From assembly GCA_024742755.1 (NCBI GenBank), contig JANSXW010000012.1, forward strand, positions 1 to 64,000: 64,000 bases of DNA, in the 5' to 3' direction. The position numbers and the translations under genes are program-made. Source of the stretch: a bacterium (GTDB lineage Bacteria; Bacteroidota; Bacteroidia; Chitinophagales; Saprospiraceae). Each line of letters starts with the position of its first letter. Position 1 is the stretch's first letter. Of the stretch, positions 37,728-58,683 are shown piece after piece. The notes under the pieces are model-generated. The model was not told the DNA's origin and did no database searches. It was given only the letters and a program-made list of their open reading frames with translations.

Positions 37728-40700
37728 ATGAAGACGTCCGGCACCACGGTTTTTAGCGTGTTTTGTTATGCATTGGGGCTCGTTATGCTCCTCTGCACAA
37801 CGGCTTGGTCAGTCCCGACTCACGGAGCGCCGGCGGAATCAGCCACCCTGGTTGAAGCATCCTGGTCAGCATCTATGCTGTCTAATTGTGAATCAGATAC
37901 GATCGCCCCGGCCATCGTTTACCCGGCTGCCGGATTGCAGGCTACCACAGAAGGCTGTGACGCCGGGCAACCTGCGGTTTTCTTCTTTTCCATTACCGTA
38001 GCGGACGATTGTGACCCTAATCCTGCCTACGAGGTAGAACTTTCATCCGGAGACGCCGGCAGCCTTTCCCTCAGCAATCCTTACGAAAACCACTTTTTGC
38101 TTACGGCTCTGCCAGGCAGCTACGAAATTACCGTTACAGCTTCTGATGCCACCGGTAATGCCCGGGCGGAAACCTTTGCTGTAGAAGTAGGGCAGGAGCC
38201 GGAGCCTGGCACAAACTACGGCTGCAATGACACCATTATCGTTACGCTCGACGAGGCTTGTCAGCGGTTAATCACGCCGGATATGATTCTGGAAGGGGAT
38301 ATTGGCTGTCTCCCGGCAGCGTACTTCGATATTCAAGTGGAGGATGAAGTGCCGGGCAACGGGCCGGTAGTAGACGGAACAGGCACTTATCCGGTAGCGC
38401 TCAACCCTCAGCAGGTAGACGCTGTTTCAGGGTTTACGCTGTCTGCTGACCACAGCTTTTGGCAATTATCCAATCGGGGGAGTGCAGCCACCGGCTTTTC
38501 GGCAGATACGCTTTTTCAGTCTGTAAGTGCTTCCGGTGGTTGGTCGGCAGCGGTCCTGCCAATTGATTTTGGAGGGCTGCTTCATTTTGACTGGGCAACG
38601 TCCATTGAATGGGCAGACTCCGCTACTTTCAGTATTCAGTTACGAAATGCCGATGGCACGATCGCAGGTGAAAGCCTTTACAGCAATTCTGATGCGGGCA
38701 GCTTTGAAAGCCCGGTCACTCAGGGGCAGGTTCTGGTTCTGAATTTGGTTTCCTCGGGTGTGGCAGCGCCTATCCCTGCCTTCAGCGCCTCTGTCACCAA
38801 TTGGAGTGTAACTTTAGATGACCTTGACCTGAGTGCTGCTTTTCCCTGTTGGGGAATGGTCGTGGCCCGGGATCAGATGCCCCCCTCTATAATTTGCCCT
38901 CCCGATACCGATGCGGCAACGATTTTGCAGCCGGCCCAGCAACTAAATGGTGCCATTACCGCTCAAAGCCCAACCATTAACGTGAATGTCCATTCGTGCC
39001 TTTCCGGGGATTTGCCGGTGAGCGGGGACCGTTTCTACGATGTGATCGCCTTTGAAGTGGACCAACCGGGCGTCTTTACGTTTTTTCTCAACACCGGTTT
39101 CTCTGATGGTGGCGGGCACATGGCCCTCTTTCAGGGAGGTTTCAGTCCGCTGAGCCCTTGCAGCAGCATCCTGGCGCAGCACGATTTCCCGGCCTCTCCA
39201 AACCCTTTCAACGGAAGCAACGACCCGTATGTAAGACTGTCGCTTCCGCTGGAAGCCAATCAGCTGTACTACCTTTTTACAACTACAGATACACCCGGTG
39301 CTACCGGAGCGTACACCTACACGATTTTGCCGGACGGCAATGGCCTGATCAGTGGCGCAACCGAGGTGGTGCTGCCCTTTACGCAAACGCTGTTTTGCGA
39401 AGACCTGTTCTTTATTCAGCAAACCGATAGCCTGCAATGGACAGGCGTACCTGAAGTCTCGGACAATTGCGGGCCGGTCAACCTGACCTTTGAGGATGGC
39501 CTGGAGCAGTCAGGCGACTGTGGGGCGTTGACTATCCTGCGGACCTTCACCGTTGTGGATGGCGCCGGGAATTCCAATTCATGTACACAGGAAATTGACT
39601 TGCGCCGCCCCGGTGTGGACGATATATCACTACCTCCTCAGACGTTCCCTATTGATTGCAATCTGAATTATCCGGTAAATGGTATGGGCAATCCCTCCCC
39701 CAGCCTTACCGGATATCCTTTTTTGCTGACGGTGCAGGGCGCCCGTGATCTGGACCAGGTGTACTGCAACCTCGGTGCAACTTACAGTGATAGCCCGCCT
39801 ATCCCGGTCTGTGAAGCCTCTTTCCAGTTTTTGAGAACCTGGGATATCATTGACTGGTGCGACCCGGCCGGCTCCTTTACTTTCGGGCAAATCATTAAGG
39901 TCGGGGACTTCACCGCACCTTTGTTGAATTGCCCGGCTCAGGACACTGATGGGGATGGCGAGGAGGACGCACTGGTATTCCCGACCCAGCCTTTTGAATG
40001 CACAGGGGCCTTTGCGGTGCCCCTGCCGGAAGTAACCGATAACTGCTCCGCCTGGGAGGTGTTCACGCAGGTCGTAACCTTCCGCGACAGCATTGTGCAT
40101 AATGCTTCCGGCTTGCCTGTAGACACATTGGAGGTTGAGGAGGTGCTGGCTACCATTCCCAATGATGCGCCCAACCGTTTCGTCTCCGGAATCCCCACCG
40201 GTTGCCATGCTTTCCGCTACGTAGTGACGGATGCCTGCGATAATCAAATCGAACAGTACTGCACCTTCTGTGTGGAAGACCGCACCGAGCCGGTTGCAGA
40301 TTGCAATGAACAGCTCAATGTTTCCCTGACTCATGACGGGTTCGTCCGCCTCCTGTCGTCAAGCGTTGACGAGGGCAGCTGGGACAACTGCGCCATTGAG
40401 CAAATGGAGGTCCGCCGGCTGATCACCAACGGGCCAGGCTGTACACCTGCGGATTCCACCTATTCTGATTGGGCACCGTATGTGGATTTCACCTGTTGCG
40501 ATATTGATTCCCTGGTGCTCATAGAACTGTTGGTGGCCGATACAGCCGGCAATGAAAACACCTGCTGGGCGGAAGTGCTGGTTGAGGACAAAATCCGGCC
40601 CAATTGCAGCCCCCCCAGCGACCGGGTCCTATCTTGCGACAGCCTGCCCAACGGGTTCGAACCAGATAGCCTCGGAGGGCTTCAGTCGCTGTTTGGCCAG

Positions 40701-43226
40701 CCTTCTGTAACAGATAACTGCTCGGCGACATGGGAAGAGCTGGAGTCCGAATCTTTGATTGACGAGTGTGGGGTAGGGACGATCGTCCGGCGCTTCAGAG
40801 CTGTAGATGCAGCAGGGAATGTGTCCAATACCGCCTGTGAACAGCTCATTACCATTGAGCCCGACCACAACTATGAAATAAAATTCCCCCGGGATGGCAT
40901 GTCTAACTGCGGCATTCCCAACCCGGATACCATTGAAGTCTTTGAGATGGCCTGCGACCTGCTGGCTGTGAGTGTGACGGATACGGTTTTTGCGGCCTCC
41001 GGAGATGAATGCTACAAGCTTTTCCGCACGTACAAGGTGATCAACTGGTGCGAGTACGATGGCGAAAGCCCGCCTGTCCTGATCCGCCGTGACGAAGACT
41101 GCGATGAAATACCAGGGGATGAAGATGTTTGGGTGCTTCGCCGTTCGGAGCATGCCTTTGTAGACCGGGACAACAACCACAGCAACAGCATACCGGCTGC
41201 CGGTACAAAGGGCACGGTGTGCAATGGGCAATCCAACCCTGAAGGTTTTTGGCGGACGGTCGTATCGAATGGATACTGGCAATACCAGCAACATGTAAAG
41301 GTCTTTGACGATGAAGCGCCGGAAATACTCTTCATTCCACCATTGGATGTCTGCAGCATCAACAACGAAACCTGCCGGGCTTCCGCAGAGTACCTCTTTA
41401 GCGTACTTGACAACTGCACGCCATCGGACCTGACTATTGAGGTTTATTACGATGAATATTCTGATGGCACCGTCGATTCTGTCTTTACCGATATTTTTGG
41501 GACTTATCCCAAGTGGAAGCTTGGCGGAGACTGGCCGATAGGATCGCATGAATTTGAAATCCGGGTAGAGGATGGGTGTGGCAATGAGGCGGCTGCTACT
41601 ATGCCATTCCGAATTGTAGACTGCCTGGCACCGGTGCCTACCTGTATTAATGGCTTATCGACCCCGCTCATGCCCGTCCCTCCGCAAACGGATGTGGATG
41701 GCGATGGAGATTTCGACCGCGGTGCTGCAACCATATTTGCTACGGACCTGATTGTCTCGCCCTATACAGACTGTAGCGGCCCGGTTACGTACAGTGTCAA
41801 CAGGGTAGGAGAGCAGCCCGCCCGCGACAAAACCTCTGTCATCCTGACCTGCGAAGACCTCGGCGTGGCCCTGCTTGAAGTATATGCCTGGGACAGTGCG
41901 GAGAACCCCTTCCAGGTACAGCCTGACGGAAGTACCGGCGGTCCCAATTATGATTATTGTGAGACTTACGTGTTGGTCACCAACAACCTGGCCGACTGCA
42001 ACGCACCGCTGCCCACCATTGCCGGTGCTATAGAGCGGGAGGATGCATCTCCGGTATCGGGTGTATCAACTGACCTTAGCGGTTTTATCAGCCAGTCTGT
42101 GCTTACCGATAGCACGGGGGGCTACGCACTCGAAGGGTTGGAACCAGCGTTTGATTATACCGTCACACCGTACCTCGATGGAGACGACCAGAATGGGCTG
42201 ACTACCTACGATGTTGTTTTAATCAGCCGGCACATTCTGGGTATTGATCATCTGGATTCTCCCTACCAGCTGATTGCGGCCGATGTGAATAACTCAGGCT
42301 CCGTCAGTACGCTCGATATGATCCTGCTGCGCCAGGTTATCCTGAGCATCCTGTTGGAAATACCGAATGGGCCCAGTTGGCGCTTCGTTCCGAAAAGCCA
42401 TCATTTTGAAGACCCAACGAACCCCTGGGCAGAACCGATACCTTACTCGGTAACCTATAACGACCTGGTCACTTCCCGCCTTGATGAAGACTACGTTGCT
42501 ATCAAAATAGGGGATATTGATTTGAGTGCTGTTGCCAGTGCTGGCCCGGTAACAGAAACAAGAAATAGCCACAGTGGCCCGGCAGCCCTGCTTCGCCTTG
42601 AAGATGTGGCCCTGCCGGCAGGGGCTTCGGTGGAAGTGCCCCTGAACAGCGACTGGTCCGGCTTAGCTGGTTTTCAGGCACTGTTAACTTTTGATCAGGA
42701 GGCGGTAGTGCTGGAAAGCGTGGCGCCGGGTACGCTGAGGGAACCATTCTTCCATCATGCATCCGGCCGTTTAGCCATGAGCTGGAATGGCGATACGCCA
42801 CCGGAAGACGGCAAACCTTTGCTCTATTTGACCCTGAGGGCCAAGCGTTCGGTACGGTTGTCAGAAGCCGTATTCCTGGATGCTCAGGGCATGCAGCCCG
42901 AGTGTTATACCCCATCCCTGGCCAAAGGCCCTGTTTTGCTGCAGTACATGGATACCGCATCAGCGGTCTACGGGCTGGACGTTTTCCCGAACCCTTTCGT
43001 ACAGCAAGCCACGGTCCGTTACTACGCCTCTGCAACAGACCCTGCCCATTTGTCTATCCTTGATCAGCAAGGGCGGCTGATATGGGAAGGATGGCAGGTG
43101 CCGTCCGCTGCCGGTTGGCAGGAGTGGTTGCTGAATGAGCAGCTGTTGCCCTCCAGTGGGCTGTATTTCCTCCGCCTGAGCAGCAGCGGGCAAGTGTGGT
43201 CCCATCGTCTTTTAAAGCTGGATTAG
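37728..43226 (+). CDS. Large T9SS surface protein, C-terminal paralogue of the preceding giant protein
   Basis: Shares NYGCND..V......C..LITPDMILEG, GCxxFRYxVTDxC, NCGxPxPDTI, dockerin-like, cohesin-like and sorting domains with 24689-37204. Confidence 0.92.
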   Translation: MKTSGTTVFSVFCYALGLVMLLCTTAWSVPTHGAPAESATLVEASWSASMLSNCESDTIAPAIVYPAAGLQATTEGCDAGQPAVFFFSITVADDCDPNPAYEVELSSGDAGSLSLSNPYENHFLLTALPGSYEITVTASDATGNARAETFAVEVGQEPEPGTNYGCNDTIIVTLDEACQRLITPDMILEGDIGCLPAAYFDIQVEDEVPGNGPVVDGTGTYPVALNPQQVDAVSGFTLSADHSFWQLSNRGSAATGFSADTLFQSVSASGGWSAAVLPIDFGGLLHFDWATSIEWADSATFSIQLRNADGTIAGESLYSNSDAGSFESPVTQGQVLVLNLVSSGVAAPIPAFSASVTNWSVTLDDLDLSAAFPCWGMVVARDQMPPSIICPPDTDAATILQPAQQLNGAITAQSPTINVNVHSCLSGDLPVSGDRFYDVIAFEVDQPGVFTFFLNTGFSDGGGHMALFQGGFSPLSPCSSILAQHDFPASPNPFNGSNDPYVRLSLPLEANQLYYLFTTTDTPGATGAYTYTILPDGNGLISGATEVVLPFTQTLFCEDLFFIQQTDSLQWTGVPEVSDNCGPVNLTFEDGLEQSGDCGALTILRTFTVVDGAGNSNSCTQEIDLRRPGVDDISLPPQTFPIDCNLNYPVNGMGNPSPSLTGYPFLLTVQGARDLDQVYCNLGATYSDSPPIPVCEASFQFLRTWDIIDWCDPAGSFTFGQIIKVGDFTAPLLNCPAQDTDGDGEEDALVFPTQPFECTGAFAVPLPEVTDNCSAWEVFTQVVTFRDSIVHNASGLPVDTLEVEEVLATIPNDAPNRFVSGIPTGCHAFRYVVTDACDNQIEQYCTFCVEDRTEPVADCNEQLNVSLTHDGFVRLLSSSVDEGSWDNCAIEQMEVRRLITNGPGCTPADSTYSDWAPYVDFTCCDIDSLVLIELLVADTAGNENTCWAEVLVEDKIRPNCSPPSDRVLSCDSLPNGFEPDSLGGLQSLFGQPSVTDNCSATWEELESESLIDECGVGTIVRRFRAVDAAGNVSNTACEQLITIEPDHNYEIKFPRDGMSNCGIPNPDTIEVFEMACDLLAVSVTDTVFAASGDECYKLFRTYKVINWCEYDGESPPVLIRRDEDCDEIPGDEDVWVLRRSEHAFVDRDNNHSNSIPAAGTKGTVCNGQSNPEGFWRTVVSNGYWQYQQHVKVFDDEAPEILFIPPLDVCSINNETCRASAEYLFSVLDNCTPSDLTIEVYYDEYSDGTVDSVFTDIFGTYPKWKLGGDWPIGSHEFEIRVEDGCGNEAAATMPFRIVDCLAPVPTCINGLSTPLMPVPPQTDVDGDGDFDRGAATIFATDLIVSPYTDCSGPVTYSVNRVGEQPARDKTSVILTCEDLGVALLEVYAWDSAENPFQVQPDGSTGGPNYDYCETYVLVTNNLADCNAPLPTIAGAIEREDASPVSGVSTDLSGFISQSVLTDSTGGYALEGLEPAFDYTVTPYLDGDDQNGLTTYDVVLISRHILGIDHLDSPYQLIAADVNNSGSVSTLDMILLRQVILSILLEIPNGPSWRFVPKSHHFEDPTNPWAEPIPYSVTYNDLVTSRLDEDYVAIKIGDIDLSAVASAGPVTETRNSHSGPAALLRLEDVALPAGASVEVPLNSDWSGLAGFQALLTFDQEAVVLESVAPGTLREPFFHHASGRLAMSWNGDTPPEDGKPLLYLTLRAKRSVRLSEAVFLDAQGMQPECYTPSLAKGPVLLQYMDTASAVYGLDVFPNPFVQQATVRYYASATDPAHLSILDQQGRLIWEGWQVPSAAGWQEWLLNEQLLPSSGLYFLRLSSSGQVWSHRLLKLD

Positions 43227-43472: not shown

Positions 43473-44006
43473 ATGTCACAGATCGAGTTTACCGAGTCAT
43501 TCTGCCAGTTTCGCCCCATGCTTTCCTCTTTCGCCTTCCACCTCACCAAGAATGAGGAAGAAGCTCAGGACCTTTTACAGGATACGGCCTACAAAGCCTT
43601 TAAGTACCGCAGCATGTACAAGCCACACACCAACCTTCGGGCCTGGCTGATGACCATCATGCGGAATACCTTTATCAATAATTACCGCCAAAAGAAGCGC
43701 CGTCAAACCCTGAACGACAAAACCCCCAACAACTACTTTCTGAACAGCGGGGGGCGCACCGTACTTAATGGCGGGGAGTCCACCGTGACGATGAACGAGC
43801 TCTCCCGTCTTGTGGATGGGTTGGAGGACTGGCTAAAAGTGCCCTTCCTGATGCACTATCAGGGGTTCAAATACGAAGAAATCGCTCAGGAGCTCGACAT
43901 TCCCCTTGGTACGGTCAAAAGCCGGATCTTCTTCGCACGCAAGAAACTGCAGGAAGGGCTGAAAGGGATGTATCACTCTCAAAACCTGAACGAACTATTG
44001 AACTAA
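43473..44006 (+). CDS. ECF RNA polymerase sigma factor
   Basis: AQDLLQDTAYKAFKYRSMYKPHTNLRAWLMTIMRNTFINNYRQKKR; KYEEIAQELDIPLGTVKSRIFFARKKL. Confidence 0.95.
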   Translation: MSQIEFTESFCQFRPMLSSFAFHLTKNEEEAQDLLQDTAYKAFKYRSMYKPHTNLRAWLMTIMRNTFINNYRQKKRRQTLNDKTPNNYFLNSGGRTVLNGGESTVTMNELSRLVDGLEDWLKVPFLMHYQGFKYEEIAQELDIPLGTVKSRIFFARKKLQEGLKGMYHSQNLNELLN

Positions 44007-44059: not shown

Positions 44060-44848
44060 ATGGCTCTGTTATCTATCGAGTTAAAAATCAACGAGAAGCT
44101 TTACAAAAACGACCCTCAGCGTACAGACCTTGGGCGTAAAATCCTGCAGTATAGCGTCATCATGATTGATGAGCTTGGGCTGGAGCGTTTCAATTTTAAA
44201 AAGCTGGCTCAACGGATAGGGTCTACAGAGGCGTCCATCTATCGCTACTTTGAGAATAAATACCTCTTGCTCATCTATCTCGTCAACTGGTACTGGGAGT
44301 GGATGCGCTTTAGGATTGATCTCAAAACGATGGAAATTGATGACCCTATCAGGAGGCTGCGGGCGGTTGTTAGTTGTATAGTGGATACGGCGAAGCGGAA
44401 TACAACGGTAGCGTTCATTGATGAGGACATCCTTCACCGTATCGTAGTGGCTGAAGGGACCAAAGCTTACCACAACAAGGCGGTGGATGCGCAGAATCAG
44501 GATGGTTTCTTTTCTTCCTATAAGGAACTCTCAAAGAAAGTAGCAAGTGTAATTCTGGAAAACAATCCTGATTTTCCCTACCCAAGGGCTATGGCTTCCA
44601 ATATTCTGGAAATGACCAATAACCACATTTACTTTGCTGAACACCTGCCCAGCCTTACCGAGGTCAAAGCCAACGGTGATATTCTCGCACAGGTGGAGGA
44701 GTTGATGTTGTACTATATCTGGAAACTTATCTTCCCGCCAACCGTTCAGCATAATAAGGCTTATCAACAAGCCAGTCATAAGGTGCTACAACCTGAGCGC
44801 TGGAGCATGGATGTCACAACGAATGGGTTGCAATATTCTGAAAAATAG
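44060..44848 (+). CDS. TetR/AcrR family transcriptional regulator
   Basis: GLERFNFKKLAQRIGSTEASIYRYFENKYLLLIYLVNWYW HTH. Confidence 0.88.
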   Translation: MALLSIELKINEKLYKNDPQRTDLGRKILQYSVIMIDELGLERFNFKKLAQRIGSTEASIYRYFENKYLLLIYLVNWYWEWMRFRIDLKTMEIDDPIRRLRAVVSCIVDTAKRNTTVAFIDEDILHRIVVAEGTKAYHNKAVDAQNQDGFFSSYKELSKKVASVILENNPDFPYPRAMASNILEMTNNHIYFAEHLPSLTEVKANGDILAQVEELMLYYIWKLIFPPTVQHNKAYQQASHKVLQPERWSMDVTTNGLQYSEK

Positions 44849-45155: not shown

Positions 45156-46949
45156 ATGGCAGATTATGGTTCTTCGAAACCTTTGCAGCGGTTTTTCCGT
45201 TTGCTGGAACTCGACAAGAAAGACATTTACTATATATATGTCTACGCGATCTTTGCCGGGCTGATTACGCTTAGCCTGCCGCTTGGGGTACAGGCCATCA
45301 TTGGACTGATCGCCGGGGGCGCGCTGTCCGCATCTCTGGTGATTCTCGTGGCAGTGGTCACCCTGGCAACCGCACTCTCCGGTATTCTCAAAGTGATGCA
45401 GCTGACGGTCACGGAGACCATTCAGCGGAGAATCTTTGCCCGTTCGGCTTTTGATTTTGCCTATCGTATACCGCGCATCAAGCTGGATGAGGTGGTGCGG
45501 TTTTATCCGCCGGAACTGGTCAACCGCTTTTTTGATACGCTCTCCGTACAAAAAGGGGTGCCCAAAATCCTGATGGACTTTTCCACCGCCGTCCTCCAAA
45601 TCCTTTTCGGGCTGATCCTGATTTCTTTTTACCATCCTTTCTTTGTTTTCTTTGGGCTTGCGCTGATCGTCATTCTGCTGGCCATCATGCGGGTGACCGG
45701 CCCCGGGGGGCTCAAGACCAGCCTCAAAGAATCCAAATACAAATACGAAGTAGCTTACTGGCTGGAAGAAATCGCCCGCGCCATGAATACCTTTAAGCTG
45801 GCAGGCGGCAATTCCTTCTCACTGAACAAAACCGATGGCCTGGTTTGCGATTACCTGGACGCCCGGAAAAAGCACTTTAAAATTCTGGTCTTCCAATACG
45901 GGAACATCGTTGCCTTTAAAACCATCATCACTGCCGGGCTCTTGTTTTTAGGAGCCTATCTGGTGATTGACAATCAGATCAACATTGGTCAGTTCGTTGC
46001 AGCGGAGATTGTGGTGATCCTGGTCATGAACTCTGTGGAGAAGCTCATTCTGAGTATGGAGACGATCTATGATGTACTCACGGGGCTGGAAAAACTGGGC
46101 GCTGTTACGGACCTGCCCATCGAAGAGGAAGAAGGCCGGCTTTTCGAGCAAATTGACACCGGTAAGGGCATAGCGCTCAACCTGGAGAAGCTGACTTTTA
46201 AATTCCGGGATTCCGACAAGAATACACTGGATAACCTGAACTTAAAGATCAAAGCCAACGAACGCATCTGCATTGCAGGCTACAACGGTTCGGGCAAGTC
46301 CACCCTGCTTCAGATTATGGCGGGCTTGTATACTGATTTTAAAGGCAGTATTTCCTACAATGGTTTTCCGGTGCGGAACATCAACATACATAGCCTGCGG
46401 CAACAAATAGGCGACTATTCGGCTCAGGAAGACATTTTCCGGGGTACCATTTTGGAAAACATCACCTTTAGTTGCCCGGATGTGCCTTTGAAGCGGGTAG
46501 TGGAGGTCGCGAATCAGATCGGATTGAGTACGTACATTGACAAACTCCCCAAAGGTTATGAGACCATGCTTTTGCCTGAGGGCAGTAACGTCACGCAAAG
46601 CATACGTACCCGCATCATTCTGGCGCGCTGTATCATCACAAGCCCGCGCATGCTGGCTGTGGAAGGCTTCTTCTACGGCATTGAGCAGGGCGACCGCGAG
46701 ATGATTTCGGACTACCTCACATCGAAAGACCACGACTGGACCATGGTCACCGTAACGGATGACCCGGTTCTGGCTTCCCGGTGCGACCGGGTAATCGTCA
46801 TGAAAGAAGGGCAGATCGTACAGTCTGGTACATTTGAAGAGATTGAGGCGGGCCCTCACTTCTACAATATTTTTACACGAACAGACGCAGCACGGGTTCA
46901 CGGCAATGGAGTTGGGAAGTCGCGCAAATCTGCTGAATCAAACGCTTAA
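45156..46949 (+). CDS. T1SS-like ABC transporter (TM plus NBD, no C39 peptidase) with degenerate ATPase motifs
   Basis: Walker A GYNGSGKST and Q-loop SAQEDIFRGTI present; LSGGQ, Walker B and H-loop positions read VTQSI, MLAVEG and TVTDDP. Confidence 0.9.
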   Translation: MADYGSSKPLQRFFRLLELDKKDIYYIYVYAIFAGLITLSLPLGVQAIIGLIAGGALSASLVILVAVVTLATALSGILKVMQLTVTETIQRRIFARSAFDFAYRIPRIKLDEVVRFYPPELVNRFFDTLSVQKGVPKILMDFSTAVLQILFGLILISFYHPFFVFFGLALIVILLAIMRVTGPGGLKTSLKESKYKYEVAYWLEEIARAMNTFKLAGGNSFSLNKTDGLVCDYLDARKKHFKILVFQYGNIVAFKTIITAGLLFLGAYLVIDNQINIGQFVAAEIVVILVMNSVEKLILSMETIYDVLTGLEKLGAVTDLPIEEEEGRLFEQIDTGKGIALNLEKLTFKFRDSDKNTLDNLNLKIKANERICIAGYNGSGKSTLLQIMAGLYTDFKGSISYNGFPVRNINIHSLRQQIGDYSAQEDIFRGTILENITFSCPDVPLKRVVEVANQIGLSTYIDKLPKGYETMLLPEGSNVTQSIRTRIILARCIITSPRMLAVEGFFYGIEQGDREMISDYLTSKDHDWTMVTVTDDPVLASRCDRVIVMKEGQIVQSGTFEEIEAGPHFYNIFTRTDAARVHGNGVGKSRKSAESNA

Positions 46950-46954
46950 CCGAC

Positions 46955-48340
46955 ATGTTGAATATATCTGACAATACCGTTAATCAGGAAGTAGAGTTCA
47001 GCCGGTTCAATTCCTTTAAGCGGACTGTACTATCCAATGCCAACCGGATGTTTACCCGCTGGCTGTTGTTCACGCTTTTCCTGGTGATTGTGTTCTTATT
47101 CCTGCCCTGGACGCAAAACGTGCAGTCCAAGGGCAAGGTCACTACGCTTCAGCCCGGGCAACGGCCGCAGACCATACAGTCGACCATCGCAGGGCGTATT
47201 GAGAAATGGTATGTCCGGGAGGGAGACCTGGTCAGGCAGGGTGACACGATTGTGTTTCTTTCAGAAATTAAGGCTGAATACTTCGACCCCGATCTTGTGC
47301 CACGCACCAACCAACAGGTGAAGGCAAAAGAAGGGGCAATCAATTCCTACGGAGATAAGGTGGTGGCGCTGGAACAGCAGATCGAAGCCATGAAGTCAGA
47401 GCTGGAATTCAAACAGCGGCAGCTTAGGAATAAAATCCTCCAAACAGAGGCCAAGCTTAATTCTGCAGAAGCCGATTACGCACAGGCTATTGTGCAGGAT
47501 TCGATTGCCAACCGGCAGTATTCCCGTTCGCAGGAGCTGTTTGACAAAGGTATCGACAGCCGGACTAAGCTGGAAGACAAGCAGTCGAAAGTGCAGGAGA
47601 CCGCTGCCAAGCTTATTTCCGCTCAGAACAAAGTGCAGGAGGCTCAAAATGAGCTGGAGAATGCCAGGTTGGCACTCAATACGGTGCAGTACGAGTACAA
47701 TCAGAAAATCGCAAAGGCAGAGTCTGATAAATTCAGTACGCTGTCTGCTCTTTTTGACGCAGAAGGCAGTGTCAACAAACTGCGCATTGAAGCTTCCAAC
47801 TATTCCGCTCGTAACCAGTTTTACTATATTTTAGCTCCACAGGATTGCTACATCACTAAAGCCATCACTCCTGGTATCGGTGAAACGGTGAAGGAAGGAG
47901 GAGATATTGTAACCATCATGCCGGCCGATTACGAGCTGGCTGTGGAGCTCTTCGTAAAGCCTATGGACTTGCCGCTGATCGAACTTGGGCAGGAAGTCCG
48001 CTTCATCTTTGACGGCTGGCCAGCGTTCATCTTTTCCGGCTGGCCCGGGCAGTCCTTCGGCACCTACTCCGGCAGTGTGGTGGCTATCGATAATATGATC
48101 AGCAAAAACGGCGAGTACCGCATTCTCGTCGGCGCTGCCCCTGGCGGCAAGCCCTGGCCGGAAGCCCTCCGGGTAGGCTCAGGCGCTCAGGGTATTGCGC
48201 TGCTCAACAACGTGCCGCTCTGGTACGAAATATGGCGGCGCCTGAATGGATTCCCGCCAGATTACTACGATGCGGAAGATGGGGATATGGGAGACGGCGA
48301 GGACGTCAAAATGAAAGCTCCGGCTAAATCAATAAAATAA
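46955..48340 (+). CDS. HlyD family periplasmic adaptor (membrane fusion protein)
   Basis: N-terminal TM, STIAGRIEKWYVREGDLVRQGDTIVFL biotinyl-lipoyl motif, long coiled coil, TPGIGETVKEGGDIVTIMP. Confidence 0.92.
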   Translation: MLNISDNTVNQEVEFSRFNSFKRTVLSNANRMFTRWLLFTLFLVIVFLFLPWTQNVQSKGKVTTLQPGQRPQTIQSTIAGRIEKWYVREGDLVRQGDTIVFLSEIKAEYFDPDLVPRTNQQVKAKEGAINSYGDKVVALEQQIEAMKSELEFKQRQLRNKILQTEAKLNSAEADYAQAIVQDSIANRQYSRSQELFDKGIDSRTKLEDKQSKVQETAAKLISAQNKVQEAQNELENARLALNTVQYEYNQKIAKAESDKFSTLSALFDAEGSVNKLRIEASNYSARNQFYYILAPQDCYITKAITPGIGETVKEGGDIVTIMPADYELAVELFVKPMDLPLIELGQEVRFIFDGWPAFIFSGWPGQSFGTYSGSVVAIDNMISKNGEYRILVGAAPGGKPWPEALRVGSGAQGIALLNNVPLWYEIWRRLNGFPPDYYDAEDGDMGDGEDVKMKAPAKSIK

Positions 48341-48341
48341 A

Positions 48342-49790
48342 ATGAGATTGAGATTCATCCCGACGCTTTTCATACTGGTACTATTGAGTCCGGTGGCGGT
48401 AGCGCAACCGGCCGATACGGCACAAGTGCTGACCGCTGATCAGTATCTGTCCTGGGTGGCGAGTTACCATCCGGTGGCCCGGCAGGGGCGGTTGCTGAAT
48501 GTACAGGCGGAAGCTCTGGAACGGCTGGCCCGGGGCGGGTTCGACCCCAAACTTTACGGCGACTGGGACCAGAAAAACTTCAAGGAAAGCGAATACTTCG
48601 CATTTGGGGAGGCTGGCGTGAAAATCCCTACCTGGTACGGCATTGAGCTGAAAGGGGCCTATGCCGTCGCAGATGTGGATGCCCTCTACCAAAACGCCGA
48701 GCGCACCGTGCCGGATGTGGGGCAGGCGATATTAGGCATTAAGGTACCCCTCGGCCGTAACCTCATCATTGATGAGCGCCGGGCTGCCCTGGAGCAAGCT
48801 AAAATCATGGCGGATGCCAACCGGGCAGAGCAGCAGGGGATGGTCAACGATTTATTGCTGGAAGCCGCGAAGGCTTACTGGGAGTGGAGCGTGGCTTTCA
48901 ATCAACTGATTGTTTTCGACCGGGCACTGGTGATTACAGTCGAAAGATTCGAAGGGATAAGAGAGAGCTTCTTCGCAGGCGACCTGCCGGCAATCGATAC
49001 CTTGGAAACGATGATTCAGTTACAGGTCCGGGAGTTTGATTACAACAATGCCTTGATTGAATACCGGAACGCGACCCTCAAACTTTCCAACTTCCTCTGG
49101 ACAGAAGCCGGAGAGCCGCTGGAAGTAACCGACGAGCTGCGTCCGCTTTTGCTGGAAGAACTGGAGCCGGACCCTGTTCCCAACACCCGGCAGCAGTTGT
49201 GGGAGGATGCGCAGCGGATACATCCTGACCTGTTGAAATACCGTTTCAAACTACAGCAGTATGATGTGGACCGCCGCCTGGCGCTTGAGCAACTGAAGCC
49301 CCGGCTCGACCTGGAGTACAACTTCCTCGGTGAGGGCACCAACTTCCTGCCCGGCAGCACAACAGACAATGGCATCTCCCAGCTGGTCGCGCAAAACTAC
49401 AAATGGGGCGTACGGTTTGATTTCCCGGTTTTCCTGCGCAAAGAGCGGGGTAAATTACAACTCACGCGCATCAAAATACAGGATGCGGAGTACACCCTGC
49501 AGCGCAAACAGCTGGAGGTGGAGAACAAGATCAACAACTACTACAATGAACAGGACAACTTCATTGCTCAGATTGCGCTTTACGAAGGTGCTGTTCAAAA
49601 CTACAACACCCTCCTCGAGGCCGAATACATCAAGTTTGACCTGGGAGAAAGCTCCATTTTCCTCGTGAATTCCCGTGAGCAGAAGCTTATCGAAGCGCAG
49701 TTGAAGCTTATTGAGCTGCGCGGTAAGTTCTTCAAGACCCGTCAGAAGCTCGAATGGGCAGCAGGCCGTTTAGGGCTACTGGCCAATTAA
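48342..49790 (+). CDS. TolC family outer membrane channel
   Basis: Signal peptide; full-length TolC pattern (IPTWYGIELKGAYAVADVDALYQNAERTVPDVGQAILGIKVPLGRNL..., LGESSIFLVNSREQKLIEAQLKLIELRGKF). Confidence 0.92.
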   Translation: MRLRFIPTLFILVLLSPVAVAQPADTAQVLTADQYLSWVASYHPVARQGRLLNVQAEALERLARGGFDPKLYGDWDQKNFKESEYFAFGEAGVKIPTWYGIELKGAYAVADVDALYQNAERTVPDVGQAILGIKVPLGRNLIIDERRAALEQAKIMADANRAEQQGMVNDLLLEAAKAYWEWSVAFNQLIVFDRALVITVERFEGIRESFFAGDLPAIDTLETMIQLQVREFDYNNALIEYRNATLKLSNFLWTEAGEPLEVTDELRPLLLEELEPDPVPNTRQQLWEDAQRIHPDLLKYRFKLQQYDVDRRLALEQLKPRLDLEYNFLGEGTNFLPGSTTDNGISQLVAQNYKWGVRFDFPVFLRKERGKLQLTRIKIQDAEYTLQRKQLEVENKINNYYNEQDNFIAQIALYEGAVQNYNTLLEAEYIKFDLGESSIFLVNSREQKLIEAQLKLIELRGKFFKTRQKLEWAAGRLGLLAN

Positions 49791-50352: not shown

Positions 50353-53300
50353 TTACCGCTGCTCGCAAATTACTTTTAGCACTTCTCTGTACCCGTTTTC
50401 CAGAACGATATCCAGAAAGTAAAGGCCTGAGAGAAGCTGATTGCTTTCCCACTCGGTTTGTACGTGCCCTGCCTTTAGTTTCATCCGGCTAACTTCCTGG
50501 CCCAGCCCATTGCGTAGTATGGCTACACCAGCTGTTTCCAATGGCTGGTCAAAGGCGATTGTAAACATGCCATGGTTGGGGTTCGGGAAAACAGTTGCCC
50601 GCATGGTTTCCCGTTCCTGCAGGAAGGAATGTTGGATATCATCGGGCATCACCAGGGCCTCATTATTTAGGTTGGACCGGTATCTCACTCTGCTAAAGGT
50701 GGCACTGGCCTGCCCATTCGGATCGGTCGTAAAAACAGCCATCCCCATCTCAACACATTCATTCATGGGCAGGTAAACCTGATGCACCAGTATCCATCCT
50801 CCTGTGTTGCTATTTTTGAAAAAGCCCCGGATAAGGTCTCCATCTCTGCGAAGCCGCAGATGGATTGGAAATGCCTGGTAAAAATTGCCACTGTTCCGCA
50901 TACCATTAGTGGTATACCGGGTCTCCCATCGCAGCAGATTGGTAAGGTTGGAATACATGGCTACCATTTTTGCGCCAGGTGCATCACTCTCTCTGATCAT
51001 GATACCTGCGTAGCCACCTTCGACCGCATCTATTCGCACCTGAATACCACCATCATTGCACAGTTCCTGGCCAATGAAAGCTACATTGTCCTCGTTGAGA
51101 GGGATTAGGTTGTAAGCTTCCGTCTGTATGTTAAAGACACCGGTTGGGGGCGTGCAAGGGTCGTAGGCATAATCAGATCCTTCTCCATGATCTCCAATGT
51201 CAGCATTCTGCCATGGAGCAGGGAGCTTGCCGGACGACACTACCGTTACTTGAGCGGTGCAATTATCGCTGTTTCCACTTAGATCCGATACACTCACCGG
51301 AATGGGGAACGTAAACCCTTCCTCGTCGCAGGTGAAGACAGCATCGGTGAAATCTACTTCAGCAATCAAACAATTGTCAGTGCTCATGCCGGCATCGAAG
51401 ACATCTTCAAGCTGCAAATGATATACTCCTTCCGGACCGAGGTCGACTTCCGTATTCAGGCAGTGTGCATCGGGCGGCAAGTTATCGGTTACGGTGATAT
51501 CGAACTGGCAGGTGGCCTCGCCGCACGCATTGGTAGCCGTAACGGCAACGGTGGTCTGGCCCACCTCGAAGGTCTGGCCTGTACCTGTTCCATCACCGCT
51601 GCCTATGGTCGCTCCTGTGAACGCATAGGTGTAATCTGGTACCGGTACACCATCAGCGATGACGTCATAGCTGACGACTGCACTACAGGAAGCGGCATCC
51701 ACGTTGACCTGCAAATAGTCAGGGCAGGCCGTAAACTCAGAGGTAGGTTGGCAGGAGCAATCTTCCGGCGCTGTCATCAGCACCTCGCTGGTGTAGGTGC
51801 AGCTGGAAGAAAATGCTGCAGAGAGCACTACTTCTTGCCCGTTGGCAGGCAGCTGCACATTCATAAACGTGTATGACGTGGTACAGGTAAGGTCTTCAGA
51901 AGTGGATTCCAAAACCGTATTCCCCTGTTGGAGCGTCAGCGTTGCTCCCGAAGGCGCATAGGCGAAAGTCACCGTCACATCGGCTGTGAAGTAGTCATCT
52001 GTACTGCTGATGGTGCCGTTGTCATCACAAGCACTGGTATTGGACAGTGCAATATTCGTTAACTCGCAGTCTGGCCCACTGCCGCCACTGAGGTTTCCAC
52101 AACCTCCGCTCAGGGCAATCGCTCCCGGGGATAATGCGCACTCGAAGGGGTCTGTCCAGCCATTATTGCAGGGCAGGTTGTCAATGGAACCGTTCGGATT
52201 GGTGGACCAAAGGGTGACTTCTTCTGAAAAATCAGAGGACAAAATAGCCCATTCGCCTTCTACATAACCGATGAAAAAATCGTTCTGGGACTGCCAGACG
52301 GGCGCCCCCCCCTCATAGCCAACAAAGGTGTAAGTTCCGTTTGGCCCAAAGCAGCCGAAACCGGACACGGTGATGTCAGCAGGGGTAAAAGTGCCGCCAC
52401 ATTCGGGCGCTGTGCCCAGCGAGCTATCATTGTAGTCGCAGCCATCAGAAAAAGTAGCCGTCAGGTCAATGTCGCTGCCGTCAGCGGCCAGGGTCACGCC
52501 GGTAAAGGTGTATGCGTTCGCAGTGAGGTCGGCCACATTGACTGCAGGGGCCGATCCGGCAAGGGTAGGCCCGGTTAGTGTAAGCGTACCGCTGCCAGGC
52601 AGGTAGCCGTAGGTCACCGTCACATCGGCAGTGAAGGTATCGTCGGTGGTGCAGGTGGTATTGCCACAGTCTGCCTCACTGATATTGTCAATGGAGATGC
52701 CAATCTGGCCATAGCTGAGGACTACTTTATCGGTCAGATACTCAATGGAGAAGCCTTCCGGCAAATTCAGTGTCGAGAAAGTCCCCGTATTCGATGCATG
52801 GAGGATGATGTCGAAAGCATCCGCACATGCAGGCTCAAAGCCGTCCACAAGCGTCACGTTGAGCGTGCCTCCAAGGGTAGAGCTGGTCGGCAAATCGAGC
52901 ATATCGTGTTCCATGTAAGGCGTTGTGCCGCCTATTTCAATATCAATGTTGCCAATGTTGTTGAGCTTATGGATGGTCAGCGTACCGGGGCTTGCACCGG
53001 GCTGAATGCTCCCGGAGGCATTGTTGTCAAATATGCGCCCGGCGCTGTTGTCCAGGGTGCCGTTGCCTTTCAGGATGCCGTTGTTGGAAAATTGACTGGA
53101 ATTTTGGTTGCTCGCTGCCATGGTGCCATCCAGAATGAACGTGCCCGTGGCCGTATTGTCAAACACGAATCCGGAACCAGTAATGTCGATGAGAGCCCCT
53201 GCGGGAACCAACAAGCTGTCGTTGTTTTCGAGCAGGGAAAAAGCAGAACAAATCAGCGTGCCGTTTTGGTAAACCAGGTTATTGTTCCTGAAAAACGCCG

Positions 53301-56300
53301 CATCTTTTTGCTCAATGGTGCCGTTGTTGGTCAACGTCCCATTGTTTTCCATGCCAACGTTGCCAAATTCGAGTTTCAGGGTGCCATCCACGTCATTGAG
53401 GAACATCCCGCTTTGGGTCATCCCCTTTCTCATGGTCATCGTGCCCATGTTGTTGAAGGTACCGCCTGCCTCATTGGTAAGGTTAGGATTGCTATTGAAA
53501 ACAGTAGTTCCATTGTTGGTCACTGTGCCCGAATTGGTGAAGAAAGCGTTTGTGGACTGGTTGAATTCAATAGTCCCTGCCGCTACGTTAAAGATGCCGC
53601 TGTTGTTGACCCCCATGAACCAACTGACGGTGTTGCCCGGCCAGTTGTGGGTAAACTCACCTTCATTGGTGAAAACCCCGGTATTCAGGGAAACTCCGGC
53701 CTGGTTGTCAATCACTCCGGTGGAGAGGTTCGTGATGTTGGCAAACGATGTCAGCCTTTTCAGGTTGGTGATAGTGCCAGCGTTGAACAAGTTGGCATCA
53801 GGGCCACTCATAGAAAGGCCGTTTGCTCCTCCATCTATGGTGAAGCCGCCGTTGTTGTAGAGCGGGATAAAATAGGTCGCCGTGCCGTTGCCCGTGAGGG
53901 TAACCATCCCGTTGTTTTCAAAGCCACCCGTGTTAGCAGTGGATTTGCTGAAAGTGACGCTTTGCTGGATGTCGAGCGAACCGCCCATTTCAATCAATAC
54001 CGAATCCCCAATGCTGGTAATGCTCATGCCGGGATGGATTACCGCATCGCCCAAATAGGTAAAATGGCGGTTGTTGCCGCTTGTTGCGGGCTGGTTGTTG
54101 TCCTGCCAGTTGGTAGGCACATCCCAGTTGCCGGTACCTGTAAACACGTAGCGGCTGCAGGGGAGGGGCGTGGCAATCATCTCGCTGGCAGAGCCGCTGT
54201 TGTCCGAGAAGGATGCTGTCACTTCTGCTTCCTGCCCTGTGGCCAAAAGTTTTACACTATTAAAGGTGTACGAGTCGCCGCTCAAAGCGGAAACATCCAC
54301 CGAAGCCGTGCCCACCAGGGCGCTGCTGCTCAAATCCAGTGTGCCCGAAGCCGGGATACTGGAAAATTTAACCGTGACACTGCCAGAGGCAAAATCATCT
54401 TCATTGACGTAGGTCATGTCACCATTGCAGGTAGTAAAGCCGCCAAAGGTGATACATTCGATTTCCCCGACTGCGGTGGTCGCTTTTTCATAGGCTCCCA
54501 TGTCCACGGTGCCGTTTTCGATGCGGGTGTTGCCTGCCAGGTCGGTAGCTGACACGTCAGTGTTGTCCCCAGCATTGATGGCAGGAGAGCAGGATGTGAG
54601 GGTGTAGTCATTGCTCGCCGCATCGGTGAAGAGCGGGTCAAGGTAGATGTTGTTGCCATCATCGGTAGCGTCTGTGGGAAAGCCGTCCTGCAAAAGCGAG
54701 TAGGCGATATTGATAGTACCCCCATTGTTGTAGACCTGCTGCTGCCCAATGGTGCCATCGCCCTGCTGGACATTGCCCCAAAAAATGCAGTTGCTCAAAG
54801 TGAGTTCATCATCGCAGGTGACCCCGCCGCCGGGCCGTAGCGTTGCGATATTTTCGGCAAAAGTGCTGTTGATGATCGACAGGTCTGCAGCATCCGAAAA
54901 GATGGCGCCACCTGCACCATAATCTATGTCGTCACTGGTTGCCTTATTTTTAGCAAAAAGACAGTCAGAAATCCGAGCACCATCGTCATATATAATGATG
55001 GCCCCACCATATATTGCCTCGTTATCGAGGAAAGAGGAGCGGATTATTTGGGTGCCTTCTCCACGCCTGGCGCGGATTGCTCCACCCTCATCCCCACTGG
55101 TGTTGCCAGTGAACTGGCAATCCATGATGGTGGTAAAGTTGATGTCATTTTCGCTCGTATAATACAGGTAGATGGCCCCGCCGTCGTTCGTAGTGGAATT
55201 ATCGATGAACTGGCAGTTGCTGATGGTGTCATTGCCGTAGGAGTATTCTGAGTAGATGGCACCAGCATAGTAACTGCTGTTACCGTTGAAAGAGCTGTTC
55301 GTGATGCTGGTGTAGTTGATTTCGTTGTAGCCCGAATATACCAGGTAGATGGCTCCACCATATTCGGTTGCCCCATTGCTGTTGAACTGGCAACTGTCTA
55401 TCACATCATTGCCATAAGAGTATTCCGAATAGATGGCGCCGCCATATTCCGCTCCGTTTTCGGTAAAACTGCACCTTTTAAAACCGGTATAGTTATCTTC
55501 GTTATATCCTGAATAAATGAGGTAAACTGCCCCGCCGTACCCCGTGCAGGTATCTTTGGTGAACTGGCAGTCCTCAAAAATGTAGTTGCCTTCTGGTTCT
55601 TCAATATAAACAGCCCCGCCGTCGTCTGCATTGTTGTCTTCGAACGTACAGTTCTCAATAATGGTAGCGGTTCCGTTCTCTTGGCCATAGAAGTAGATAG
55701 CACCTCCCTCTCCACTGGTATTCCCGGTAAAAGTGCAGTTGCTGATGGTATCGTTGGCTTCCGAATAAGCATAGATGGCGCCGGCATATCTGGTGGCTTC
55801 ATTGTTCGTGAACTGGCAATTGTCAATGTTGGTGTAGCCGCCGTTTTCGCCTGAATATTCTAAGTAGATACCGGCTGCAGAGAAGTTGCTGAAGTTATCG
55901 GTGAACTCGCAGTTGGTGATGTTACAAACGCCACCTGTCTCTTCGATGTAAATGCCCGCAGCATAATAGTAGCCAAAGTTTTCCACAAAATTCACATCGT
56001 TGATGGTGAAAGCAGTAACGGCCCTTAGGTAGAGCGCCCCTTGCCGTTTAAAAATATTTTCACCTTCCAAGGTGTGGCGGTCATTGTTTTCTGCGCTGTA
56101 GGCATGTTGGATGGTCAGGCCATCCAGCAGAATACCATTATCGTTGACCGATATAAAGATGTGGTAGGCATTGCCGTCATCCCAACTATCGTTGTTGTCC
56201 ACGTCGCCGGAGAGGATGGTCTCGTTGCCTGGTGTCCGTTCGGAAAGCATCGTTTCCGTACCGGCAAAGCCACCGTAAATCTTGATGTTGTCCTTGAGCA

Positions 56301-58683
56301 TGAAAGCGTAATCACGGGGGGAAGTGCAAGTGGTACAGCCTGTTGGATATGCGGCAGGTTTATAAGTGCCCGCTGCCATCCAGATTTCGGTCACGCCACA
56401 GGGATTGTCAATGGCCGCCTGCAGGTCGCTGGTCGCATTGGCCCAGGAAGAGCCGTTGCCTGTGCCGGTAGGGGTCACGTAGATGCGGTTGGTGATGCCC
56501 GCGCAAGGGTCAAACACCTCCATCGTGATTTCGTTGCTCGTCGCCATCGACGGGTCGGCGCACGGATCGCTGCTCGTCATTTCACAGGTCACCACATCGC
56601 CATCTGCCAGGGTGGTGCTGGTGTAGGTGTCCTGGTCGGTACCGACGGGGTTGCCGTTCACCTTCCATTGGTAGCTCGGCGTGGTGCCGCCGTTGGTGGG
56701 CGTGGCGGTGAAGGTTACGCTGGTGCCCGGGGCGATGTTGTTGCCGGGGTCGGCGGCGATGGAGACGGCAGCTGAGTTATCGTTCAGGTACAGTTGGGTG
56801 AACGGGTTGCCCATTGCATTTTCCCCAGTCAACATCAAGTCCATGTCCATGTCGCCGTCCACGTCTGCAAAGGCGCCGCCGCCCCTGGCAATCCCTTCCA
56901 AGGAACTGCCTGTGGCCTCGGCAAAGATGCCGCTGCCATCGTTGATGTAGAGCTTGGTAATATTTTCAAAGTTCACGTCCTGCCCTGAAATCAACACATC
57001 TAAGTCGGAGTCCCCGTCTAGGTCAGCAAAGGCAACATCGCCATTGATAACCCCCTCAAAGGTGGTGGCTGGAACCTCGGTGAAAGTGCCGTTTCCGTCG
57101 TTGGTGTACAGTTTGGCAATCCTTGTATTGCTGTTGTCCCGGCCCGTTATCAGCACGTCAGGGTAGGTGTCGCCGTTCACATCGGCAAAGGCGATGGAAC
57201 TGTTGGCAACCCCTGGGAACGGAGTACCAGAGACCTCGGTGAAAGTACCGTTACCGCTGTTGGTGTACAGCTTGGTAATCCTATTATTGTTTCCATCCCG
57301 TCCGGTAACCAGGACATCTTGGTCCAAGTCGCCGTCCACATCGGCAAAGGCAATGGAGCTGTTGGCGACGCCAGTGAATGGGGTGCCCGTGACCTCGGTG
57401 AAGGTGCCGCCGTTGTTGGTGTACAGCTTGGCAATCGGGGTAAAGCTGGCATTGCTTCCTGTGATCAGGATATCCATGTCCAAGTCGCCGTCCACATCCG
57501 CAAAGGCAATAGAGCCGCTTTCAACGCCAGTGAACGGGGTGCCCGTGACCTCGGTGAAGGTGCCGCCGTTGTTGGTGTACAGCTTGGCAATCGGGGTAAA
57601 GCTGGTATTGCTTCCTGTAATCAGGACATCCAAATCCATGTCGCCGTCCACGTCTGCAAAAGCGGTAGAACCACGGGAAGCCCCATCGAAGGATGTGCCC
57701 ATGGCTTCGGTGAAAATACCGTTGCCGTCATTGGTGTACAACTTGGTCAAAGGGCCAGTCATTAAACTTCTGGCTTCGCCTGGCCTGAGCCCACCAAAGG
57801 AACTGTTGTCCCCGGTAATCAGCACATCCATATCCATGTCGCCATCCACGTCTGCAAAGGTGACGGTACTTTCCGTGACCTGCTCGAAGGGGTTTGCCGA
57901 GGCTTCTATGAAGGCAGGCGGGCAGGCGGGCGCTAAACAGCCACTCACCAGGCTAAATGTAGAAGAGCAAAAACCTTGTAGGTCCCAACCTTCACACGGA
58001 GGCAAAGGGGTATCCGCTGTGTTTATATACAAGGGAGACCCAAAATCATCTACGACCCATTGAGCACCGTCCCAGAAGATGCTGAAAAAGTTTTCTGATG
58101 AGTGGACATACTTTGGCTTGCCGTTCTCGACTCCAGTAAACGCATATATCCCATCCAACAAGCAGCCGTTGGTAGTGGTCACGATTACTTCGTACGTAGG
58201 CACCGTTTCTACAGTCATCATTATGACATTGCTGTTCGTAGTCGCCGGGGCGGCGTACGGATCGCTACTGGTCATTTCACAAGTGACCACATCGCCATCA
58301 GCCAGCGCATAGTCTGTGCAGGCGTGGTCAGTTGTTGGGGTAGCGTTATCGCCAGCCAGGGTGGAAAAGGCAAAAGAGGGATGGGGCGTCATCGCATCAA
58401 TGGGCGTACCTGATTCCAGGGAAAACCGCGCAGTGGCATTGACGCTACCCATCAGTAACAATACTAACAGCATGCCCGAAACAAGACCGGGCGGAATTTG
58501 TGCAAATTTGTCTGGGGGAAGGAGGTGTTCTAACTGCTTCCAAAGTGTATCCCGGAGCATTCCCCGTTTCGCAGGCTGCTGATCCTTAACGTATGTACTG
58601 TCCGTCGGCTTTGTGTAGCTGCCGTAAACAGGAGGGAGTACTTTTTCCTTTTTTCCCGATAGAGGAAGTAAACTTTTGTTCAT
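50353..58683 (-). CDS. Giant surface protein: FG-GAP/VCBS-type repeats, polymorphic right-handed beta-helix repeats, HYR domain, LamG-like region, T9SS sorting domain
   Basis: ADVDGDLDMDILITGSN repeats; YGGAIYxxYSxxN repeats; C-terminal ATVFPNPNHGMFTIAFDQPLETAGVAILRNGLGQEV...SGLYFLDIVLENG. Confidence 0.92.
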   Translation of the reverse strand: MNKSLLPLSGKKEKVLPPVYGSYTKPTDSTYVKDQQPAKRGMLRDTLWKQLEHLLPPDKFAQIPPGLVSGMLLVLLLMGSVNATARFSLESGTPIDAMTPHPSFAFSTLAGDNATPTTDHACTDYALADGDVVTCEMTSSDPYAAPATTNSNVIMMTVETVPTYEVIVTTTNGCLLDGIYAFTGVENGKPKYVHSSENFFSIFWDGAQWVVDDFGSPLYINTADTPLPPCEGWDLQGFCSSTFSLVSGCLAPACPPAFIEASANPFEQVTESTVTFADVDGDMDMDVLITGDNSSFGGLRPGEARSLMTGPLTKLYTNDGNGIFTEAMGTSFDGASRGSTAFADVDGDMDLDVLITGSNTSFTPIAKLYTNNGGTFTEVTGTPFTGVESGSIAFADVDGDLDMDILITGSNASFTPIAKLYTNNGGTFTEVTGTPFTGVANSSIAFADVDGDLDQDVLVTGRDGNNNRITKLYTNSGNGTFTEVSGTPFPGVANSSIAFADVNGDTYPDVLITGRDNSNTRIAKLYTNDGNGTFTEVPATTFEGVINGDVAFADLDGDSDLDVLISGQDVNFENITKLYINDGSGIFAEATGSSLEGIARGGGAFADVDGDMDMDLMLTGENAMGNPFTQLYLNDNSAAVSIAADPGNNIAPGTSVTFTATPTNGGTTPSYQWKVNGNPVGTDQDTYTSTTLADGDVVTCEMTSSDPCADPSMATSNEITMEVFDPCAGITNRIYVTPTGTGNGSSWANATSDLQAAIDNPCGVTEIWMAAGTYKPAAYPTGCTTCTSPRDYAFMLKDNIKIYGGFAGTETMLSERTPGNETILSGDVDNNDSWDDGNAYHIFISVNDNGILLDGLTIQHAYSAENNDRHTLEGENIFKRQGALYLRAVTAFTINDVNFVENFGYYYAAGIYIEETGGVCNITNCEFTDNFSNFSAAGIYLEYSGENGGYTNIDNCQFTNNEATRYAGAIYAYSEANDTISNCTFTGNTSGEGGAIYFYGQENGTATIIENCTFEDNNADDGGAVYIEEPEGNYIFEDCQFTKDTCTGYGGAVYLIYSGYNEDNYTGFKRCSFTENGAEYGGAIYSEYSYGNDVIDSCQFNSNGATEYGGAIYLVYSGYNEINYTSITNSSFNGNSSYYAGAIYSEYSYGNDTISNCQFIDNSTTNDGGAIYLYYTSENDINFTTIMDCQFTGNTSGDEGGAIRARRGEGTQIIRSSFLDNEAIYGGAIIIYDDGARISDCLFAKNKATSDDIDYGAGGAIFSDAADLSIINSTFAENIATLRPGGGVTCDDELTLSNCIFWGNVQQGDGTIGQQQVYNNGGTINIAYSLLQDGFPTDATDDGNNIYLDPLFTDAASNDYTLTSCSPAINAGDNTDVSATDLAGNTRIENGTVDMGAYEKATTAVGEIECITFGGFTTCNGDMTYVNEDDFASGSVTVKFSSIPASGTLDLSSSALVGTASVDVSALSGDSYTFNSVKLLATGQEAEVTASFSDNSGSASEMIATPLPCSRYVFTGTGNWDVPTNWQDNNQPATSGNNRHFTYLGDAVIHPGMSITSIGDSVLIEMGGSLDIQQSVTFSKSTANTGGFENNGMVTLTGNGTATYFIPLYNNGGFTIDGGANGLSMSGPDANLFNAGTITNLKRLTSFANITNLSTGVIDNQAGVSLNTGVFTNEGEFTHNWPGNTVSWFMGVNNSGIFNVAAGTIEFNQSTNAFFTNSGTVTNNGTTVFNSNPNLTNEAGGTFNNMGTMTMRKGMTQSGMFLNDVDGTLKLEFGNVGMENNGTLTNNGTIEQKDAAFFRNNNLVYQNGTLICSAFSLLENNDSLLVPAGALIDITGSGFVFDNTATGTFILDGTMAASNQNSSQFSNNGILKGNGTLDNSAGRIFDNNASGSIQPGASPGTLTIHKLNNIGNIDIEIGGTTPYMEHDMLDLPTSSTLGGTLNVTLVDGFEPACADAFDIILHASNTGTFSTLNLPEGFSIEYLTDKVVLSYGQIGISIDNISEADCGNTTCTTDDTFTADVTVTYGYLPGSGTLTLTGPTLAGSAPAVNVADLTANAYTFTGVTLAADGSDIDLTATFSDGCDYNDSSLGTAPECGGTFTPADITVSGFGCFGPNGTYTFVGYEGGAPVWQSQNDFFIGYVEGEWAILSSDFSEEVTLWSTNPNGSIDNLPCNNGWTDPFECALSPGAIALSGGCGNLSGGSGPDCELTNIALSNTSACDDNGTISSTDDYFTADVTVTFAYAPSGATLTLQQGNTVLESTSEDLTCTTSYTFMNVQLPANGQEVVLSAAFSSSCTYTSEVLMTAPEDCSCQPTSEFTACPDYLQVNVDAASCSAVVSYDVIADGVPVPDYTYAFTGATIGSGDGTGTGQTFEVGQTTVAVTATNACGEATCQFDITVTDNLPPDAHCLNTEVDLGPEGVYHLQLEDVFDAGMSTDNCLIAEVDFTDAVFTCDEEGFTFPIPVSVSDLSGNSDNCTAQVTVVSSGKLPAPWQNADIGDHGEGSDYAYDPCTPPTGVFNIQTEAYNLIPLNEDNVAFIGQELCNDGGIQVRIDAVEGGYAGIMIRESDAPGAKMVAMYSNLTNLLRWETRYTTNGMRNSGNFYQAFPIHLRLRRDGDLIRGFFKNSNTGGWILVHQVYLPMNECVEMGMAVFTTDPNGQASATFSRVRYRSNLNNEALVMPDDIQHSFLQERETMRATVFPNPNHGMFTIAFDQPLETAGVAILRNGLGQEVSRMKLKAGHVQTEWESNQLLSGLYFLDIVLENGYREVLKVICEQR
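54900..56050 (-). repeat. Polymorphic-membrane-protein-like GGAI/Y beta-helix repeats
   Basis: At least 8 repeats of NCxFxxNxAxxYGGAIYxxYS. Confidence 0.8.
57130..57900 (-). repeat. FG-GAP-like tandem repeats, near-identical at DNA level in the centre
   Basis: Units at about 57328 and 57484 (156-bp period) share long identical blocks, e.g. gaccTCGGTGAAGGTGCCGCCGTTGTTGGTGTACAGCTTGGCAATCGGGGTAAAGCTGG. Confidence 0.8.

Follow-up and report, generated by a model that had tools for sequence, protein, structure and literature searches.

ATP hydrolysis is the defining trait of ABC exporters. The type I secretion exporters HlyB and LapB/LssB combine an ABC protein with an HlyD-type adaptor and a TolC-type channel, an arrangement shared by the Bacteroidota locus described here. 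In TAP, TM287/288, TmrAB, and CFTR, one degenerate site has, as in our locus, lost the catalytic Glu and the signature while keeping Walker A. These proteins pair with an active half, whereas here there is one such gene per operon, all sites appear dead, and one clade is devoid of nucleotide-binding domain (NBD). SbmA, a presumed descendant of a full-length ABC transporter, has an NBD-less, proton-driven ABC-type fold with a glutamate ladder (PMC13316013). MsbA truncated of its NBD in the laboratory still performs proton-coupled transport, and the membrane domain of LmrA alone behaves in the same way (PMC4979069). These constructs are artificial and less efficient than the wild type, whereas the NBD loss reported here is natural and long maintained. 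What is new is an NBD-less clade inside an ABC-HlyD-TolC family. The proposal of the SbmA route to NBD-less transporters had no surviving intermediates to draw on within a single type of operon; here, intermediates and end state share one conserved operon across many Bacteroidota, so that the change of energy source of a primary transporter becomes directly testable by comparing relatives. A literature search, with most subscription journals outside its reach, found no published account of this family.

The window, that is, the whole stretch of 64,000 nucleotides analyzed (contig JANSXW010000012.1 of assembly GCA_024742755.1, positions 1 to 64,000), comes from a Phaeodactylibacter-like genome. 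Its ABC protein is found 99% identical, and with the same motifs, in the independent genome of Phaeodactylibacter xiamenensis KD52 (locus L021). The ABC gene is separated by 5 bases from the HlyD gene, itself separated by 1 base from the TolC gene. The relevant features are the following:

44060..44848, + strand: TetR-family regulator, upstream of the ABC gene, also upstream in many homologous loci
45156..46949, + strand: ABC-exporter-like protein of 597 aa, with a type IV transmembrane domain followed by a pseudo-NBD (open reading frame; PF00664, ABC_membrane, and PF00005, ABC_tran)
45177..46127, + strand: transmembrane domain, residues about 8-324, the strongly conserved portion
45768..45812, + strand: coupling-helix-2 segment, residues 205-219
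46164..46874, + strand: pseudo-nucleotide-binding domain, residues about 337-573
46278..46304, + strand: Walker A GYNGSGKST, residues 375-383, retained
46422..46424, + strand: Ala423, in the register of the Q-loop Gln (alignment)
46590..46604, + strand: VTQSI replacing the LSGGQ signature, residues 479-483 (alignment)
46662..46667, + strand: Glu503-Gly504 replacing the Walker B Asp and the catalytic Glu, respectively (alignment)
46758..46760, + strand: Asp535 replacing the H-loop His (alignment)
46955..48340, + strand: HlyD-type periplasmic adaptor (Pfam HlyD_3; NCBIfam TIGR01843 below cut-off)
48342..49790, + strand: TolC-type outer-membrane channel (Pfam OEP; TIGR01844 below cut-off)

An initial annotation, made from this DNA alone, had described a type I secretion-like exporter whose ATPase appeared catalytically dead. 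Our alignments agree with its reading of a retained Walker A, of a lost signature, and of substitutions at the Walker B Asp, the catalytic Glu, and the H-loop His. Conversely, the Q-loop had been called intact, but when the protein is aligned with 47 active exporters from its class, Ala423 occupies the Gln column and Gln424 lies one residue off register. The dedicated HlyD and TolC partners are indeed encoded directly downstream, and Pfam detects no C39 peptidase domain (PF03412) in the window protein or in the members of the family with an extended N-terminus. The AlphaFold model of the window protein adopts a type IV exporter fold (mean pLDDT 78.8), and the pseudo-NBD is predicted to be well folded, with a pLDDT of about 88-92 over most of the domain. 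The best Foldseek matches are the peptidase-containing C39 exporter PCAT1, with about 22% identity, and HlyB. The likeness to HlyB and LapB/LssB also extends to NCBIfam, where TIGR03375 is the best model. However, unlike these exporters, the window protein scores far below the type I secretion cut-offs (195 vs. 693 bits for TIGR03375 and 172 vs. 726 for TIGR01846), its catalytic motifs are absent, and no substrate for secretion is apparent.

A single scan of species genomes yielded 59 related loci; a 60th match, L080, was left out as unrelated (27%). The signature is degenerate in all of the approximately 50 loci with a complete NBD. The profile detects members of the family or of its sister group in 77 of 297 sampled Bacteroidota genomes, and the membrane domain is detected in 211 of 390 sampled genomes of the window's class. 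ABC-HlyD-TolC operons are counted as ATP-driven type I secretion, an assignment that would be wrong for a family detected in roughly half of the genomes sampled from this class. HlyD and TolC genes follow the ABC gene in nearly all loci with sufficient flanking sequence. Clustering of the neighbors of 79 loci recovered the ABC gene in 77, TolC in 76, HlyD in 75, and TetR in 27, and revealed neither a conserved second exporter half near the ABC gene nor a conserved cargo-delivery gene. Four loci (L038, L039, L033, and L061) carry about 0.7-2.8 kb of extra sequence between the ABC and HlyD genes, and in one genome (G049) the dead-NBD exporter operon is present twice (L089 and L130). In the window, an ECF sigma factor gene (43473-44006) precedes the TetR gene; it is kept in 12 of the 79 loci, most of them closely related to the window. 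Two large genes surround the operon: upstream, one for an 1832-aa protein with weak matches to HYR and PKD domains (37728-43226, + strand) and, on the other side, one for a protein of 2776 aa that combines FG-GAP and Chlam_PMP repeats with a C-terminal sorting domain for type IX secretion (50353-58683, − strand).

Some members are longer or shorter than the window protein. The N-terminus is extended by about 130-240 aa in L089, L091, L111, L126, L130, L059, L073, L143, L141, L139, L149, L145, and L144, as well as in the sister sequences L116-L125. These sequences belong to the sister group or to basal members of the family, and the extension has been lost in the window's branch. A C39-like nature of this extension is not supported, as it has no Pfam match and no convincing structural match in the PDB. 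Some matches contain in-frame stops, with open frames of about 550-580 aa, which suggests a shorter C-terminus with the match reading through.

We surveyed the catalytic motifs in 86 nonredundant full-length members. A Lys or Arg is kept in Walker A in 83 (97%), which indicates that nucleotide matters across most of the family, and an aromatic A-loop residue is found in 68. The other motifs have largely disappeared: the Walker B Asp is present in 11/86, the catalytic Glu in 15/86, both together in 4/86, the H-loop His and the Q-loop Gln in three members each, and the SGG of the signature in none. A single protein, L053, combines Asp-Glu with His. Three members (L127, L148, and L144) have lost Walker A itself while retaining the NBD. 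Essentially every homolog with the same neighbors shows the same motif losses, which is more than chance would give, and the ATPase is predicted to be catalytically dead. The case that would contradict it, homologs in the same context with an intact signature, Asp-Glu, and His, was sought and not encountered in the family. The closest approach is its sister group in the phylum, which has the same neighbors in most loci. There, Asp-Glu is present in 10/10 sequences, His in 8/10, and the second glycine of the signature in 9/10, but the Q-loop Gln is missing from all ten and LSGGQ is never intact. The order of the motif losses can tentatively be read from the tree.

The two domains evolve differently. 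Over 5026 pairs of family members, the mean identity is 54.5% for the membrane domain versus 34.1% for the NBD, and the NBD is not the more conserved domain in any pair. The corresponding values are 46.0% and 39.9% in the sister group. Controls from the same class show the reverse: 45.5% and 55.4% for C39 exporters, in which, unlike in the window family, the NBD is conserved and the Asp-Glu and His motifs are kept, and 46.3% and 67.4% for canonical exporters. Between close relatives, omega ranges from 0.01 to 0.09 for the membrane domain and from about 0.025 to 0.125 for the NBD in comparisons that allowed dS to be estimated; as dS was often saturated, these values are rough. Both domains are under purifying selection; the pseudo-NBD is maintained yet relaxed. 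The family-wide motif pattern and the low dN/dS in both domains agree with the earlier view that this is no frameshift and indicate a maintained state. Together with the independent 99% identical genome, they also rule out a sequencing error or a pseudogene.

In nine genomes belonging to five genera and three families, the orthologs are only about 332-339 aa long and end at the boundary between the membrane domain and the NBD. HlyD and TolC genes lie downstream in all nine. In membrane-domain trees, these proteins form one clade (support 100/99) nested inside the dead-NBD family, and their nearest relative, L126, has a dead NBD (support 100/98). Another candidate, G478, was discarded because its reading frame runs to the contig end. 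Searching the nine whole genomes with the window NBD revealed no detached NBD, only distant ABC ATPases with 20-31% identity, most of them inside other full-length exporters. In this clade, the coupling-helix-2 segment has diverged while loop lengths are kept. Its identity is 48% within NBD-bearing members versus 17% between NBD-bearing and NBD-less members, the lowest of all regions, and Phe213, present in 86/86 NBD-bearing members, is found in 1/9 NBD-less proteins. This divergence and the loss of Phe213 are evidence against the docking of an NBD in trans at the usual site. Two cytoplasmic loop regions (residues 118-137 and 189-204) stay conserved without NBD and may still bind something.

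We propose that these operons encode a tripartite exporter that works without ATP hydrolysis, is probably ion-driven, and arose in steps from a type I secretion-like ABC exporter, a reading to which we give a probability of about 0.6. As judged from the sequences, the initial finding is sound and larger than first described: it would correspond to a tripartite transporter lineage uncoupled from ATP hydrolysis, with both intermediates and an end state. The first losses, as seen in the sister group, would have been those of the Q-loop Gln and of the full signature, in an ancestor akin to type I secretion ABC exporters. The signature glycine, the Walker B Asp, the catalytic Glu, and the H-loop His would have followed in the window's family, Walker A being kept. 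Later, in separate branches, Walker A would have disappeared (L127/L148 and L144), and the whole NBD in one clade. From the missing catalytic residues we infer that these proteins do not hydrolyze ATP, and the pumps of this family probably run on something other than ATP. The working part would consist of the transmembrane dimer, the adaptor, and the outer-membrane channel. The substrate would move by alternating access, with an ion gradient as the most likely driving force, as for SbmA. Where it persists, the pseudo-NBD probably binds nucleotide without hydrolysis and tunes or stabilizes the dimer.

Among the possible energy sources, ion-driven export appears the most likely by analogy with SbmA and the NBD-truncated exporters and in view of two glutamates, Glu87 and Glu284, located in or near membrane helices and conserved both in the family and in the NBD-less clade. 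These positions are non-acidic in C39 exporters and acidic in the sister group, which still has Asp-Glu and mostly His; the presence of Glu284 there weakens its use as a marker of the switch from ATP. SbmA/BacA-like peptide transporters (SLiPTs), as described (PMC13316013), share with our proteins the ABC-exporter membrane fold and conserved glutamates. SLiPTs are proton-driven and lack an NBD; this lack is shared by the NBD-less clade, but not by the window protein with its pseudo-NBD. SLiPTs are importers that carry an additional TM0 domain and no longer have the coupling helices, and HlyD or TolC partners do not appear in the PMC13316013 account. The family described here differs by its HlyD/TolC partners, by the retention of much of the cytoplasmic loop region, and by its dead-NBD intermediates. 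A broader proposal, to which we give somewhat less than even odds, is that these transporters constitute a natural, phylum-wide secondary-active class of HlyD/TolC tripartite systems, in which a switch from ATP to an ion gradient in type I secretion ABC exporters would be visible at every stage: motifs still partly intact, NBD dead, and NBD absent.

The pseudo-NBDs might instead bind ATP, dimerize, and gate the membrane domain without hydrolysis, the substrate following its own gradient. A D-loop mutant of TAP behaves as such a nucleotide-gated facilitator (PMC7756269), and the conservation of Walker A and of the aromatic A-loop residue, like the well-folded prediction and the purifying selection on the NBD, is what this explanation would expect. 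We nevertheless regard it as unlikely: a homodimer would have no signature on either side to clamp ATP across its interface, Walker A is gone from L127, L148, and L144, and the NBD-less clade would have to work without any nucleotide site. The nucleotide-gated scaffold suggested in the initial annotation could apply to the NBD-bearing members, which keep Walker A, but cannot account for the core function of NBD-less members.

The annotation had also suggested a partner of a second NBD. Pairing with an active half-transporter, or with an NBD borrowed from elsewhere, would let the complex hydrolyze ATP at one site. Asymmetry with a single degenerate site is frequent among ABC exporters (PMC7756269), split genes are found for YddA-type exporters (PMC13316013), and the window's genome does encode other full-length exporters. 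These are, however, only about 21-25% identical to the window protein, and the loci conserve no second exporter half. A degenerate half of a heterodimer should have its motifs held steady by the remaining site, whereas here they vary freely. The existence of the NBD-less clade, with a diverged docking segment and no detached copy, further disfavors this pairing, which we consider improbable. More doubtful still is that the membrane domain is no transporter and simply anchors the HlyD-TolC conduit in the inner membrane for cargo delivered by an unlinked protein: conservation does peak in cytoplasmic loop regions that NBD-less members also retain, but it is high in transmembrane helices 1, 3, and 6 too, where some residues inside the membrane are invariant, which is more than an anchor should need, and no conserved gene for cargo delivery was found in the neighborhood.

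In two loci of the NBD-less clade, a gene for a small predicted membrane protein of 112-120 aa lies directly upstream of the NBD-less gene (L114, 9256-9591, − strand; L115, 7505-7864, + strand). The two proteins are apparently related to each other and end with a TPPPN motif.
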